In this document: positions 15,919-53,687 of the stretch, piece after piece
Position numbering within the stretch: position 1 is the first letter of the stretch
How the letters are laid out: each line of letters starts with the position of its first letter
NCBI RefSeq assembly: GCF_000760695.4
Contig: NZ_JHEG04000001.1
Location: 1,520,717-1,584,716, forward strand
DNA length: 64,000 nt
Direction: 5' to 3'
From: Tolypothrix bouteillei VB521301
GTDB taxonomy: Bacteria > Cyanobacteriota > Cyanobacteriia > Cyanobacteriales > Nostocaceae
The notes under the pieces: generated by a model
The model's input: only the letters and a program-made list of their open reading frames with translations
Told to the model about the DNA's origin: nothing
Databases searched by the model: none
Made by a program: the position numbers and the translations under genes

Positions 15919-16045
15919 ATAGCAATCCTAAATCATTTGTAAAAATTTGAATAGCTAATAGCTAATGGCTAATGGCTAATAGCTATTAGCCATTAGCCAT
16001 TAGCGCTCTTTACTCTTATTCTTATATTTTATTTAGGACTGCTAT
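15919..16045. repeat. MITE-like element with a nested 44-bp heptamer palindrome
   Basis: Terminal inverted repeats ATAGCAATCCTAAAT (15919-15933) and ATTTAGGACTGCTAT (16031-16045) match at 14 of 15 positions. Between them, 15961-16004 is a perfect 44-bp palindrome made of TAATGGC/TAATAGC heptamers and their complements, centred on AGCT. It lies just upstream of the DM13 lipoprotein gene, ending 26 bases before its ATG. Confidence 0.65.
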
Positions 16046-46867: not shown

Positions 46868-47545
46868 TTAAGAAACCTGCTTCATCCGATATCCCAATCC
46901 GTGAATTGTCTCAATCAAATCGTCTGGAGCTGCAACAGATCTGAGTTTCTGACGCAAAGCTTTGATATGAGCTTTGACTGTATCTTCCTCTGGAGGGTTT
47001 TCGCTGTTCCATAGGTTTTCCAAAATGACCGCACGGCTGAGAACTCTACGTCCATTCCGAAGTAAAAGTTCTAAAAGACTAAATTCTTTGGGTGTTAACT
47101 GTAAAGGGGCATTGAGATATGTTACTTCGTAGGTACTGGGATTTAGGTGCAAACTACCCCAGGTCAAAGTAGGTGTAGGGGCAAAACTCCCACGTCGTAA
47201 TAAAGCACGAATGCGGGCTAATAATTCTTGCAAATCGAAAGGTTTGACAACGTAATCATCCGCACCAGCATCTAAACCGTTAATTTTATCGGTTCTTGTA
47301 TCACAAGCTGTTAGCATGAGTATTGGCAAAGTATAGCCATGATGCCGCAAGCGCTGGCAGAGACTGATACCGTCTAGTAGGGGAAGCATAATATCTAGCA
47401 AAATCAGGTCGTAAGCTATAATCTTTATCTGTTTCCAAGCAGACTCCCCATCTTTCACTAAATCCACAACATAAAGCTGATCCGTTAACGCTTCACATAA
47501 AGCTTCCGCTAAACGCCCATTATCTTCTACAAGCAAAATTCGCAT
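46868..47545 (-). CDS. OmpR-family response regulator
   Basis: 225 residues. Receiver with VEDN near 7-10, phospho-Asp in LILLDIMLPL near 51, KPF near 101. DNA-binding winged helix (about 130-222) with LTPKEFSLLELLLRNGRRVL and TVKAHIKALRQKL. Divergent from the CHASE3 kinase gene (98-bp gap), so they likely form a pair with a shared regulatory region. Confidence 0.93.
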   Translation of the reverse strand: MRILLVEDNGRLAEALCEALTDQLYVVDLVKDGESAWKQIKIIAYDLILLDIMLPLLDGISLCQRLRHHGYTLPILMLTACDTRTDKINGLDAGADDYVVKPFDLQELLARIRALLRRGSFAPTPTLTWGSLHLNPSTYEVTYLNAPLQLTPKEFSLLELLLRNGRRVLSRAVILENLWNSENPPEEDTVKAHIKALRQKLRSVAAPDDLIETIHGLGYRMKQVS

Positions 47546-47642
47546 ATCAACTACAAAGAAATTCTGAAAGAATCCTAATTCAAAAATTAGAAAGTGCTAT
47601 CAATCATCATAGAAATTTTAGAGAGATCTTGCAGTGTTGTAC

Positions 47643-49382
47643 ATGAAGCGGTTGTTAGAAAGAAAAATTCTTATTGGTGGATTTGCCCTCGCAGTACTTA
47701 TTCTCACTATTGTAAATACTATTTCGTATCAAAACACTGCAAAAGTTTTTACCACACAAAAACAAGTAGAGGCTTCCTATGAGGTGTTGCAAAAAGTTAG
47801 AGATATATTAACTACACTGCGAGATGCGGAAAGAGCAAGACGTGGTTATATTATTACAGGAAAAGAATCTTATCTAGAAACTTACGATACTGCTCTTAAA
47901 AGTATTAATACTGAACTCAGTGAAGCAAAAAATGCAACTTTTAATAATCAAAACCAACGTCACAGACTTAATCTTATTGAACCCCTGATAACGAAAAGAG
48001 TCAATTTAATTAAAACTTCAATTAAATTATACAAACAAAATCAATCAGATACAGAAACTCAAATAGCTTTGACCGATAAAGGTCTGCTGCTTCATGATGA
48101 AATTTGGCGGATTATTACTCAAATAGAAAACGAAGAGCAGCTACTATTACAGCATCGTAGGGCAGAGTCAGAAAAAAGTTTTCACTTCACAACTTTAATA
48201 ACGATCGCAGGTTCCTGCTTTAGCTTTAGTCTATTGTTTTCTGTCTATTCACTCCTTCAGGCACAAATTAAAAAACGACAGCAGTTAGAAAGTGTTTTAA
48301 GAGAAAGCAAAAAACGATACCGAAAATTATTTGCAGTTAATCCACACCCTTTATGGGTTTACGATCTAGCAACTTTAAAGTTTTTAGTGGTCAATGAAGT
48401 TGCTGTTAAGCACTATGGTTATTCTCAAGCAGATTTCTTATCCATGACTGTTAAGAATATTTTGCCATCCGAAGACATAGAAAGTGTTATGAAGAGAATT
48501 TATCAACTCTCTCCGACAATCAAGCAAACAGCGATCGAGAGGCATAAGAAGCAAGATGGTACAATAATCGATGTTGAAGTCATTTCCCACGAACTGATTT
48601 TTCGAGGAAGATGTGCGAGGTTAGTACTGGCTCGGGATATTACTATAGAAAAACAAGCAAGAGAAGCAGAAGAAATACGGCGTAATTTAGAAAAAGAACT
48701 AGAATTGCAGGAATTGAAAACTCGCTTTTTTTCAATGGTATCCCATGAATTTCGTACTCCCCTAAGCACTATTTTGATTTCAACTCAAGTTTTAGAAAAC
48801 TCCAAAGAATGGTCGGAAGAGAAAAAACGGAAAAATTTGCAACGCATTCAATCTTCAGCAAAAACAATGACACAACTATTGACGGATATTCTCACTCTGA
48901 CAAGAGCCGAATCAGGAAAATTAGAGTTTAAACCTCATCCTCTAAATTTAGAAGATTTTTGTCACTCCATAGTGGAGGAAATTCAATTTAGTACGGGCAC
49001 TCAACAAGATATTATTTTTATTCATCAATGTTTAGAAAAAATAGCTTGTATGGATGAAAAAATTCTGCGTTCAATTCTTACCAATCTACTTGATAATGCT
49101 ATTAAATACTCGCCTCAAAATAGTAAGATATACTTTACTCTCACAAAGAATAGCGAACAAGCTATTTTTCAAATTCAAGACCGAGGAATTGGAATTAGTC
49201 AAGAAGAGCAAGAACAACTATACCAAGCTTTCCAAAGAGGTCAAAATGTGGGTGATGTACCGGGAACGGGATTGGGACTAGCGGTTGTGAAAAAATGTGT
49301 GGAGTTACATGGTGGTAGTATCAATGTTGAAAGTCAGCTAGAGGTTGGAACTACTTTTACAGTTTTACTTCCTTGGATGTAA
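47643..49382 (+). CDS. CHASE3-PAS sensor histidine kinase
   Basis: 579 residues from MKRLLERK (an upstream GTG at 47634 is possible). TM1 is 10-30, a CHASE3-like extracytoplasmic domain spans about 35-180 (RDAERARRGYIITGKESYLE), TM2 about 182-205. A PAS domain (about 225-340; ...VNPHPLWVYDLATLKFLVVN) is followed by HisKA (FFSMVSHEFRTPL) and HATPase with NLLDNAIKYS, DRGIGIS and GTGLGLAV. It probably signals to the divergent OmpR-type regulator. Confidence 0.93.
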   Translation: MKRLLERKILIGGFALAVLILTIVNTISYQNTAKVFTTQKQVEASYEVLQKVRDILTTLRDAERARRGYIITGKESYLETYDTALKSINTELSEAKNATFNNQNQRHRLNLIEPLITKRVNLIKTSIKLYKQNQSDTETQIALTDKGLLLHDEIWRIITQIENEEQLLLQHRRAESEKSFHFTTLITIAGSCFSFSLLFSVYSLLQAQIKKRQQLESVLRESKKRYRKLFAVNPHPLWVYDLATLKFLVVNEVAVKHYGYSQADFLSMTVKNILPSEDIESVMKRIYQLSPTIKQTAIERHKKQDGTIIDVEVISHELIFRGRCARLVLARDITIEKQAREAEEIRRNLEKELELQELKTRFFSMVSHEFRTPLSTILISTQVLENSKEWSEEKKRKNLQRIQSSAKTMTQLLTDILTLTRAESGKLEFKPHPLNLEDFCHSIVEEIQFSTGTQQDIIFIHQCLEKIACMDEKILRSILTNLLDNAIKYSPQNSKIYFTLTKNSEQAIFQIQDRGIGISQEEQEQLYQAFQRGQNVGDVPGTGLGLAVVKKCVELHGGSINVESQLEVGTTFTVLLPWM

Positions 49383-49544: not shown

Positions 49545-50123
49545 CTAAGGGGTTCTCATAGGTAATGGTTGCCAGTTTGAGTAGTCAGCCATATGACCCC
49601 AATAGGTTAAATACCCAGTTAAAGCAAAAATGAAAGCTGCTGCTATCAGAATAATTGTGCCAACTAACCTTAGAGTACGATTGGTACGTAAATAGAGTGT
49701 TGGTGCTGCAAAAATTCCAGCCAATCCTGTTAGGATAAATCCAATTCCTGTAAGCAAGGGACGTTTTGTTAAATCTAGATTAATAATACGTATACCAATT
49801 AAAAGAGCAGCAAGCCCTGCAAAAAATCCGTAAATAGCAATCGTAATTAAATCCCACCCTTGGGCTAGAGCTATGGAAGTAGCAATAAACAAAATTCCAA
49901 ATAAAATAGTTGTTTCACCATAGGCAATATTGAAACTTCCTCGAACTGGCCAAGTAAAAGTCATGTGTAAGCCAGTCAAGAGTGCGATCGCTCCTGTTAT
50001 ACCAAAACCGGGAATCCAACGTTTTTGATTGGCTTGGTCCAAACCATAGTAAACGTAACTAGCAAGAAGAAACAGCCCTGCTACGAGATTTATTAACATT
50101 AAAGAGATGTAATTAATAAACAC
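49545..50123 (-). CDS. DUF981-family membrane protein
   Basis: 192 residues with six hydrophobic helices. Motifs such as RWIPGFGITGAIALLTGLHM, TWPVRGSFNIAYGETTILFG and YWGHMADYSNWQP fit DUF981. Divergent from the rhodopsin gene with 151 bases between, so both may share control. Function unknown; co-occurrence with the rhodopsin suggests an accessory role but is unproven. Confidence 0.8.
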   Translation of the reverse strand: MFINYISLMLINLVAGLFLLASYVYYGLDQANQKRWIPGFGITGAIALLTGLHMTFTWPVRGSFNIAYGETTILFGILFIATSIALAQGWDLITIAIYGFFAGLAALLIGIRIINLDLTKRPLLTGIGFILTGLAGIFAAPTLYLRTNRTLRLVGTIILIAAAFIFALTGYLTYWGHMADYSNWQPLPMRTP

Positions 50124-50274
50124 AATCTATCTTTCGGCACTGTTTGACCTGTATTTAAATATATAGGTTGGCTTTAATGAAATCTGCACCTAGAGATATT
50201 TTTCGCAATCAAAAATCTGACAAAATTTCAGATATCAACACAAAAATACATATTTATTAGGCTATAGACTTTGC

Positions 50275-50976
50275 ATGACTCAAGCTTGGCTTTGGATTGG
50301 TGTCATTAGCATGGCACTGGGAAGTGTTTTTTTTGGATTTGGCGCACATAATGCCAAAAGCGAACGCTGGAAAATTTTGCACACGCTCAATTTTTTTATT
50401 TGCTTAATTGCGGCTGGGCTTTACTTAGCAATGGCATTGGGTTTGGGAGTTAATATTATTAACGATCGCCCTACCTACTGGGTGCGATTCCTAACTTGGT
50501 TTTTTTCAACGCCCCTTTTGCTACTGGATTTAACTTTTCTAGGAAGAACGAGTTTACCCATTACAGGTAGCTTGCTGGGAGCCAATGCCTATATGCTAGC
50601 GACTGGCTTTGTTGCTACAGTAACACCCAAGCCCATGAGTTACATTTGGTATGTAACGAGTTGTGCTGCATATCTAGCAATTGTTTATCTACTTGTAAAA
50701 CCATATCGAGTTGAGGCTGAACGCCAACATCCGAGAGCGAAGCAAGCTTTCCGCAAGCTAGTAACGGTACATTTGGTATTATGGACACTTTATCCAATTG
50801 TATGGATTCTCAGCCCAGAAGGGTTTAGAGCCTTTGGTCAAGGTTCTGAGACAATGTTTTATACGCTGCTAGACATTGCTTCTAAAGTTGGTTTTGGTTT
50901 TCTCTCTTTGAACACTTTACACACTTTAGAACAGACAAGAGAATCAGTAAGAGAAACTCTAATGGCTAATGGCTAA
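50275..50976 (+). CDS. Microbial rhodopsin, cyanobacterial TSD anion-pump type
   Basis: 233 residues, seven helices. Helix C is RFLTWFFSTPLLLLDL (71-86). Aligned to bacteriorhodopsin, R71 is R82, T74 is D85, S78 is T89, D85 is D96, i.e. the TSD triplet of cyanobacterial halorhodopsin (as in Mastigocladopsis repens MrHR). The retinal lysine is K204 (LLDIASKVGFG), with D200 as the D212 partner, and LWTLYPIVW is helix F. The loss of the Asp counter-ion predicts inward Cl- (or sulfate) pumping rather than protons. The last four residues (MANG) and stop come from a heptamer array. No retinal-forming enzyme is in the window. Confidence 0.92.
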   Translation: MTQAWLWIGVISMALGSVFFGFGAHNAKSERWKILHTLNFFICLIAAGLYLAMALGLGVNIINDRPTYWVRFLTWFFSTPLLLLDLTFLGRTSLPITGSLLGANAYMLATGFVATVTPKPMSYIWYVTSCAAYLAIVYLLVKPYRVEAERQHPRAKQAFRKLVTVHLVLWTLYPIVWILSPEGFRAFGQGSETMFYTLLDIASKVGFGFLSLNTLHTLEQTRESVRETLMANG

Positions 50977-51094: not shown

Positions 51095-51772
51095 ATGAGT
51101 CAAAATTCCATAACTGACACGCTAGATGTTAGCTTGATTTCTCCAAGCATTACCAGTTACAAATCGATAGATGGTACTTTAAAACTGGGAATTATGGCTT
51201 CGGGAAATGGTAGTAATTTTGAAGCTATTGCTCAAGCAATTGACGATGGACGCTTATCTGCTAAAATTCAAGTTTTAATTTACAACAACCCCGATGCTTA
51301 TGCTGCAGTACGAGCAGAAAAGAGGGGCGTACCTGTAGTACTTCTCAATCACCGCGACTACAAACGCCGTCAAGATTTGGACAGGCAAATCGTGCAGACT
51401 TTTCAGCAATACGGTGTGGAATGGATCGTTATGGCAGGTTGGATGCGACTGGCAACTTCTATTTTAATAGACGCTTTCCCTAACAGAATTCTTAATATTC
51501 ATCCAAGCTTGTTGCCTAGTTTTAAGGGAGCGTATGCTATAGAAGCAGCACTTGCTGCGGGAGTAAAGATTGCTGGCTGTACGGTGCATCTTATTTGTTT
51601 GGAAATGGATAGCGGTCCCATTGTGATGCAAGCTGCTGTACCCGTGTTACCCGACGATACACCAGAAACACTTCACGCTAGGATTCAAGTGCAAGAGCAT
51701 CGCATCTTACCAGATGCGATCGCTCTTGCCGCACTATCTCACAGTAATTTAAGGCGGAAGCCCACCAGTTAA
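51095..51772 (+). CDS. purN: Phosphoribosylglycinamide formyltransferase
   Basis: 225 residues with a 30-residue N-terminal extension, then LGIMASGNGSNFEAI (31-45). The formyl-folate and catalytic motif region is RILNIHPSLLPSFKGAYAI (Asn-His), and CTVHLICLEMDSGPIVMQ gives the C-terminal Asp. It transfers formyl from 10-formyl-THF to GAR in purine synthesis. A 13-bp hairpin terminator begins at its stop codon. Confidence 0.95.
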   Translation: MSQNSITDTLDVSLISPSITSYKSIDGTLKLGIMASGNGSNFEAIAQAIDDGRLSAKIQVLIYNNPDAYAAVRAEKRGVPVVLLNHRDYKRRQDLDRQIVQTFQQYGVEWIVMAGWMRLATSILIDAFPNRILNIHPSLLPSFKGAYAIEAALAAGVKIAGCTVHLICLEMDSGPIVMQAAVPVLPDDTPETLHARIQVQEHRILPDAIALAALSHSNLRRKPTS

Positions 51773-52187: not shown

Positions 52188-53687
52188 ATGCAAGTTAGTT
52201 ACCAGTACAAATTGCGCCCTAGGGAAAATCAATCAAAAGTTATGGATTCGTGGTTGGATATGCAGCGTAGTTTGTTTAACTGGTTTCTGGCTGACCGTAT
52301 TGACGGCTATTATCAAACCTTTGTTATGGGTGAGTATTGCGATATTAGAACAAGAACTGAGCAATGCCCATTAACTTGTTCGTTGAGCAAGAACTCAAAT
52401 TTGCACAATCCTTGGAAAAACCCAGACAAAAACGGAGTAGTCAAAAAGCGTTCTGCAAGTTTAATGCAAGATGCTTATTTGGCAGAAATGAAGCAAGCTA
52501 GACCTTGGTATAAGACAATCCACTCAAACGTGTTGCAAATGCTGGTAAAGCGTCTTGAGTGTTCTATGGAAGGCTTCTTTAAACATGGTCGTGGGTTTCC
52601 TTCATTTAAGAACAGGTCTAACTTTCGCTCTTTCCAGTACAAGCCAGGTGACGTTAAGCTCGACGGGAATAAAATATATCTGCCATTAATAGGGTGGATG
52701 CGTTTTTATAATTCTCGTCCTATCCCACAAGGATTCCAGATCCGTACCGTAACACTGCGTAAAAAAGCAGATGGTTGGTACACGAGTATATTAATTAGAG
52801 ATGATTCAGTTCCTGATTATCCAACCCCAAAAGAAGTTAATACTATTGTGGGAGTGGATATGGGATTGACTAAGCTTGTTCATTGCTCAGATGGTTCTGA
52901 GTTTGACAATCCTCGTCCTAGTACGTCCAAGAAAGGTAAACGCACTCTAAAAATCAGGCAGCGACGTTTATCTAGGAAAAAGAAAGGTAGCGCAAACCGC
53001 AAGAAAGAGGCGCAAAAACTGGCTCGACTCCACAAAAAACGCGCTGATAAACGTAGTGCCTACCAATGGCTAGTTGCCAGCAAGATAGTTAGAAAAGCTG
53101 ACGCTATTAGCGTGGAAGATCTCAACATCAAAGGGATGAAAGCAAGGTGTAAGCCTAAGCCTGATGATGTTAAACAAGGTCGATTTCTCAAGAATGGTCA
53201 ATCCGCTAAACGCGGTTTGAATCGTTCTATTTCAGATGCTTCATGGGGAACTTTGATAGAAAAAATTCAGTACGCGGCTGCGAAGTCGGGAAAAAGTTTT
53301 TTCAAGGTTGATCCAAAAAACACGAGCCGTACTTGTTCCAAGTGTGGTGTCGTTGATGCCTTGTCTCGCTTTGGAGAAAAGTTTGTTTGCACATCGTGCG
53401 GACATGAAGCGCACGCAGACAAACAAGCGGCAGTTAACATTAAAACCCGTGCTGTACAACAAAACGGGTTAACAATCAAGAAACTTAAAAAGGTACGCAG
53501 GGACTCTGCGGAACCCAAACAATTAATATTGTTTGAAACGCCCAACCCTGAATTAACAGCGATTAAAAGGAGACACCGTGCCAGCAATGGCAAGCGCGGT
53601 GTGCCTGGGAACCCGCCAACCTCAGTACTACTGAGTCTGTGGGATAACGCGGAAATGGCATATTCGCGTGAATCCCACCCCTTCTAG
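52188..53687 (+). CDS. tnpB: TnpB RNA-guided nuclease (RuvC-type)
   Basis: 499 residues. RuvC residues are all present: GVDMGLTKL (first Asp), ISVEDLNIKGM (Glu) and HADKQAAVNI (last Asp). The Zn finger CSKCG...CTSCG lies between them. An N-terminal domain with YKLRPRENQ carries an extended insert (about 40-85). It resembles active TnpB nucleases that use an RNA from the element's right end as guide. The stop codon TAG lies in the right-end hairpin loop, and the last residues are ESHPF. Confidence 0.93.
   Translation: MQVSYQYKLRPRENQSKVMDSWLDMQRSLFNWFLADRIDGYYQTFVMGEYCDIRTRTEQCPLTCSLSKNSNLHNPWKNPDKNGVVKKRSASLMQDAYLAEMKQARPWYKTIHSNVLQMLVKRLECSMEGFFKHGRGFPSFKNRSNFRSFQYKPGDVKLDGNKIYLPLIGWMRFYNSRPIPQGFQIRTVTLRKKADGWYTSILIRDDSVPDYPTPKEVNTIVGVDMGLTKLVHCSDGSEFDNPRPSTSKKGKRTLKIRQRRLSRKKKGSANRKKEAQKLARLHKKRADKRSAYQWLVASKIVRKADAISVEDLNIKGMKARCKPKPDDVKQGRFLKNGQSAKRGLNRSISDASWGTLIEKIQYAAAKSGKSFFKVDPKNTSRTCSKCGVVDALSRFGEKFVCTSCGHEAHADKQAAVNIKTRAVQQNGLTIKKLKKVRRDSAEPKQLILFETPNPELTAIKRRHRASNGKRGVPGNPPTSVLLSLWDNAEMAYSRESHPF

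Follow-up and report, generated by a model that had tools for sequence, protein, structure and literature searches.

The window, the whole stretch of DNA that was analysed (64,000 nucleotides of the cyanobacterium Tolypothrix bouteillei VB521301), carries an open reading frame at 50275-50976 that is, by its Bac_rhodopsin domain and the retinal lysine of its helix G, a type-1 (microbial) rhodopsin. Its match to the Pfam family Bac_rhodopsin (PF01036) scores 178 bits over residues 2-217 against a cut-off of 24.6, and so is not a chance match. Read from R71, helix C is RFLTWFFSTPLLLLDL, and the protein has the expected R71, T74, W75, S78, D85, H166, E182, D200 and K204. The frame lies on the forward strand and encodes 233 residues between an ATG start and a TAA stop. 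A sequence-only reading of the stretch had given the gene exactly these limits, and its numbering of T74, S78, D85 and K204 agrees with our residue check. The features of the locus are collected in Table 1.

Table 1. Features of the rhodopsin locus, in positions of the window
Feature	Position	Strand	Remark
OmpR-type response regulator	46868..47545	-	84% identical to those beside the L014 and L019 rhodopsins
CHASE3 histidine kinase, upstream	47634..49382	+	a relative is likewise placed in L014 and L019
DUF981 membrane protein, divergent neighbour	49545..50123	-	192 aa, 6 predicted helices; Pfam and modelled fold
Divergent intergenic region, 151 bp	50124..50274	.	conserved in scattered blocks only, in the five loci with the DUF981-rhodopsin arrangement
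Cyanobacterial halorhodopsin (CyHR) gene, MrHR orthologue	50275..50976	+	intact ORF, ATG start, TAA stop, 233 aa
Codon N63, residue of the anion entrance, fixed jointly with E182	50461..50463	+	role from PMC9525653, in part
Helix C motif codons T74 (50494-50496), S78 (50506-50508), D85 (50527-50529)	50494..50529	+	positions computed from ORF start
Codon E182, sulfate-blocking residue in MrHR	50818..50820	+	role from PMC9525653, in part
Codon K204, retinal Schiff-base lysine	50884..50886	+	residue check
TAATGGC heptad-repeat hairpin over the rhodopsin stop codon	50957..51039	+	folding: 27-bp stem, z -9.1
Formyltransferase (purN/GART-like), downstream	51095..51772	+	also close to the rhodopsin of L001, L002, L015, L017, L021 and L022

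Around the rhodopsin, the order DUF5357, ABC-2 permease, pentapeptide protein, rhodopsin and purN is partly seen across loci of Scytonema, Tolypothrix, Hassallia and Calothrix. Some loci have further genes within this stretch: the gene for the DUF981 protein, which adjoins the rhodopsin in the window and in the related loci L001, L002, L021 and L022, and the kinase-regulator pair (46868-49382), which three of 24 loci compared (the window, L014 and L019) have next to the rhodopsin. It is possible that the pair regulates the rhodopsin. A scan of the 151-bp divergent gap found no sigma-70-like promoter site. The last codons of the rhodopsin are built of the TAATGGC repeat, and similar repeats occur near 15960 and 55550; a repeat search of the window did not list the hairpin, although folding showed it. 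Downstream of purN lies a gene for a TnpB-like (OrfB_IS605/Cas12f1-like) protein (52188-53687, forward strand), of which no relative was found among the 23 related loci compared.

The solved structures nearest to the window rhodopsin are those of the halorhodopsins MrHR of Mastigocladopsis repens (PDB 6k6i, 6xl3; 458 bits) and SyHR of Synechocystis sp. PCC 7509 (PDB 7zou; 367 bits), with the next at 171 bits. The alignment to MrHR runs over residues 1-230 with zero gaps and identifies the protein as an MrHR orthologue: residues 63, 74, 78, 85, 118, 182 and 204 are identical, and the differences are scattered substitutions, among them residue 77, adjoining S78, which is F in the window protein and C in MrHR. 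SyHR shares with it the TSD motif, R71, the helix-F histidine and the retinal lysine. Cyanobacterial halorhodopsins are defined by the helix-C motif T-S-D, or by TSV, TSL or TSI (PMC9617919, in part), and the window protein has T74, S78 and D85. It also has the hallmark histidine of helix F (H166 in MrHR), at a position where 25 rhodopsins of other kinds carry L, F, T or V. In a tree, 130 CyHR rows stand apart from three cyanorhodopsin-like (CyR-like) rows, with the window protein on the CyHR side; MrHR and SyHR are not themselves rows of this tree, and their placement with the window protein rests on the best-structure matches.

A pattern scan of a collection of genome contigs returned 25 loci, namely 23 cyanobacterial halorhodopsins and two distant haloarchaeal rhodopsins. 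The best match came from Tolypothrix campylonemoides VB511288 (L001), 90% identical over residues 1-227; its rhodopsin gene likewise has a DUF981 neighbour but lacks the kinase-regulator pair. A retinal-based anion pump from T. campylonemoides has been published, to judge by its title (Rokitskaya et al. 2023, cited in PMC11528372, in part). If, as the species name suggests, L001 encodes that pump, its 90% identity means that a protein closely similar to the window rhodopsin has probably been studied already. The gene is thus an ordinary one, a further orthologue of a pump known from the laboratory. The halorhodopsin of L098 (G043:C14), 59% identical and with a TSL motif, T182, G63 and T118, is a more remote variant within the clade.

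Of 18 pairs formed with relatives, 15 allowed dN/dS to be computed, with ratios of 0.047-0.114; dS exceeds 1 in all 15 and could not be computed in the other three, so that the ratios are rough. A length filter had excluded L003 and L016, whose called frames are much longer, and the broken L021-L023. Such ratios agree with purifying selection on a coding gene, and the intact gene of the window is therefore probably in use. Its orthologues are broken in four near relatives (L021, L022, L023 and L092) by frame change, interruptions, internal deletion or reduction to a C-terminal remnant. The copy of L021, from a metagenome-assembled genome of Scytonema hyalinum, is split over two frames, which could be an assembly error; that of L022 (Scytonema NIES-4073) lies in three pieces across about 3.6 kb, that of L023 (Iningainema) lacks about residues 26-100, and a congener (G388, read as S. 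hofmannii PCC 7110) retains about residues 156-231. A rhodopsin match of at least 70% identity occurs in nine of 120 genomes, that of the window included, and four of those nine copies are broken. These losses indicate that the function of the pump is dispensable in this group of relatives. In the clade to which the gene belongs, the pump is kept under selection in some species and lost in several near relatives, and this bears on the cellular role of such pumps.

The sequence-only reading had noted that the window holds no carotenoid-cleaving retinal synthase. Indeed, all three RPE65-family carotenoid oxygenases of the genome (9.95 Mb in two contigs) lie outside it. The reading had also proposed a genome-wide search for a retinal-forming oxygenase; among the three is L029, which matches the Synechocystis apocarotenoid oxygenase 2biw with 660 bits and is, by this likeness, a diox1-type retinal synthase gene. 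The gene diox1 is present in 152 of 154 cyanobacterial genomes (PMC7541481, in part).

The genome encodes a second rhodopsin (L026:1486-2244; G000:C2:255225-255863) on the 455-kb contig C2, and thus on a separate contig from the gene of the window. It has the motif D-T-E and matches 6lm0, which we take to be cyanorhodopsin N2098R, with 512 bits; motif and match identify it as a cyanorhodopsin (CyR) of the proton-pump kind, by family an outward proton pump. Its neighbours are a divergent histidine kinase and a DUF326 protein rich in Cys, and in a near-identity search of plasmids with L026 the sole match was to the adjoining kinase region, on one Nostoc plasmid. One membrane could be polarised by both of these predicted light-driven pumps, the CyHR and the CyR.

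In MrHR and SyHR, chloride lies close to the protonated Schiff base, a water molecule and the residues T74 and S78, and is moved inward by light (PMC9525653 and PMC9617919, each in part). We consider that the window protein is very probably (about 0.9) a cyanobacterial halorhodopsin of the MrHR kind, with E182 and N63, and would be an inward pump of chloride and bromide. The sequence-only reading of a TSD-type anion pump finds support in the sequence evidence; transport itself, together with anion binding, direction and ion selectivity, we infer from the work on MrHR and SyHR. Light would isomerise the retinal bound to K204. The protonated Schiff base, together with T74 and S78, would hold a chloride (or bromide) ion, which would pass from the outer side into the cytoplasm and then be replaced through the extracellular mouth, by way of E182 and N63 and then R71. 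The interior of the cell would turn more negative.

The same reading had hinted at sulfate, which cyanobacterial TSD pumps move in one case, and it is here that it misfits the protein. Halorhodopsins of the MrHR type, which pump halide only, combine E182 with N63 at the anion entrance, as does the window protein; those of the SyHR type, which pump sulfate too, have T or another non-negative residue at 182/183, where the window protein has E182. SyHR itself pumps sulfate and has T183, A63 and A118 at its anion mouth (PMC9525653, in part), against E182, N63 and P118 here, all three MrHR-like. Wild-type MrHR pumps chloride with a merely faint sulfate signal, and its relative sulfate activity rises about 11-fold in the mutant E182T (PMC9525653, in part). 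Since E182 is kept, sulfate transport by the window protein is expected to be absent or faint, and we reject on this residue the improbable alternative that it moves sulfate as well as chloride in the manner of SyHR. Hardly any credence is due to the idea that the protein senses light or pumps protons instead of anions. A two-component system does lie upstream of the gene, and the single mutation T74D turns MrHR into a proton pump (PMC9617919, in part), but position 74 is T, not D, in 131 of 131 family proteins among the matches listed, and kinases of the CHASE3 family neighbour the rhodopsin at only three of the 24 loci compared, the window among them (see above).

The divergent DUF981 protein invites the further idea that rhodopsin and neighbour work as a functional unit, such as a pump and its partner channel. 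Its coordinates bear out the 151 bp between the two starts given by the sequence-only reading, and its frame scores 181 bits in Pfam against a cut-off of 29. The modelled fold may resemble that of the SatP and UreI channels, a fold (SatP/AmiS-UreI) that is marked by a six-helix protomer; a sequence search of the PDB with the DUF981 alignment gave only matches with E above 1, and a literature search found no paper containing the word DUF981. The genes lie side by side and divergent at five loci, the window's and four related ones. In a sample of 388 genomes of the order, DUF981 occurs in 49 and rhodopsin likewise in 49 (48 and 46 of them, respectively, exceed the cut-off); 13 genomes carry both, more than expected by chance (Fisher p 0.004, uncorrected for kinship). 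By their coordinates, however, they are adjacent in only one of those 13, the genome of the window (G000). Among 120 genomes drawn as relatives, its own included, 37 have DUF981, 21 a rhodopsin match, 13 both and four the two side by side (G000, G390, G394 and G413), and these four are all one locus; the linkage that the sequence-only reading had suggested looking for elsewhere is found only there, in close relatives. The genes also decay independently: DUF981 is cut to about residues 1-67 in L002, where the rhodopsin is whole, and is whole in L021 and L022, where the rhodopsin is broken. On this independent decay and the single adjacency we reject a functional unit, which is very improbable. 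With adjacency at one locus and each gene broken without the other, the link looks like a local arrangement, a matter of local history, and not a partnership or a general association in the genomes sampled.

The predicted halide pump of the window can be placed within its family by the residue at position 182. The family set comprised 131 CyHR clusters taken from the matches listed (the best 120 of 332, then 10 new among the best 120 of 447); distant members are under-sampled in it, and clusters are not species. Among these listed proteins, the window protein included, R71, T74 and H166 are present in all 131, S78 in 130, D85 in 126 and K204 in 130. Position 182 is T in 91 listed clusters, E in 20 and S in 20. 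An alignment-free pattern gave 72 T, 20 S and 18 E among the 131 listed, with 21 unmatched, and the printed alignment segments are free of gaps near this position. The counts include one protein (P0106) that has an odd end and W at the place of K204; the tree omits it. Among the matches listed, N63 marks all 20 of the E182 members and one of the 111 others, and V59 and S122 likewise mark the E182 group. The SyHR-like residues A63 and A118 occur in two and 19 of the 131. At position 63, E or D is found in 36 of the 131 listed, all among the 111 T/S members and none in the E182 group, and might restore a negative mouth in those members.

A quick tree of 133 rows, built with column 182 removed, places the difference between E and T/S as one change within the CyHRs. 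The E182 members, 25 rows including the window protein, form a single clade (SH-aLRT 96). With the CyR-like outgroups, this clade is nested within the T/S members, with SH-aLRT values of 96, then 88, 85, 61 and 10 toward the root; a single T/S clade was nevertheless not rejected (p 0.257) when 42 of the 133 rows were put to an AU test. In CyR pumps, E182 and E192 together make up the proton-release pair (PMC7541481, in part), and L026 and L074 have E at both 182 and 192. In the pattern scan, 20 of the 23 cyanobacterial loci have an open frame from T74 to K204. Seventeen of these have E182 (Nostoc, Scytonema, Tolypothrix, Calothrix, Hassallia and Spirirestis) and three T182 (Chlorogloea, Chroococcus and Aliterella). 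The open TSD loci of the order sample show E in four from the window's own family and T in three from other families.

According to PMC9617919, in part, E182 is a conserved residue for which SyHR alone has T, a statement that cites a supplementary figure and may concern only the sequences shown there. Our counts (T in 91 and S in 20 of the 131 listed clusters) disagree with it. We put forward, tentatively and at somewhat less than even odds, that sulfate-compatible mouths with T or S at 182 are the rule among CyHRs, and that the one E182/N63 clade, to which the window protein and the examined members of Nostoc, Scytonema, Tolypothrix and Calothrix belong, is predicted to be bound to halide. 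Against this reading count the relative sulfate activity of only 0.092 that T182 alone gives in MrHR (PMC9525653, in part), the scarcity of A63 and A118, and the E or D at position 63 of 36 T/S members.

Sulfate pumping may be commoner in the CyHR family than the printed statement allows. A residue proven by mutation to admit or exclude sulfate splits the E clade from the other sampled members, and the sulfate-permissive state is the commoner of the two. If the reading is true, SyHR would not stand alone, and a family divided between two kinds of mouth would offer a natural experiment in anion selectivity. It is the pattern in the family, more than the gene itself, that is of wider value, as it bears on whether many cyanobacteria can use light to take up sulfate.
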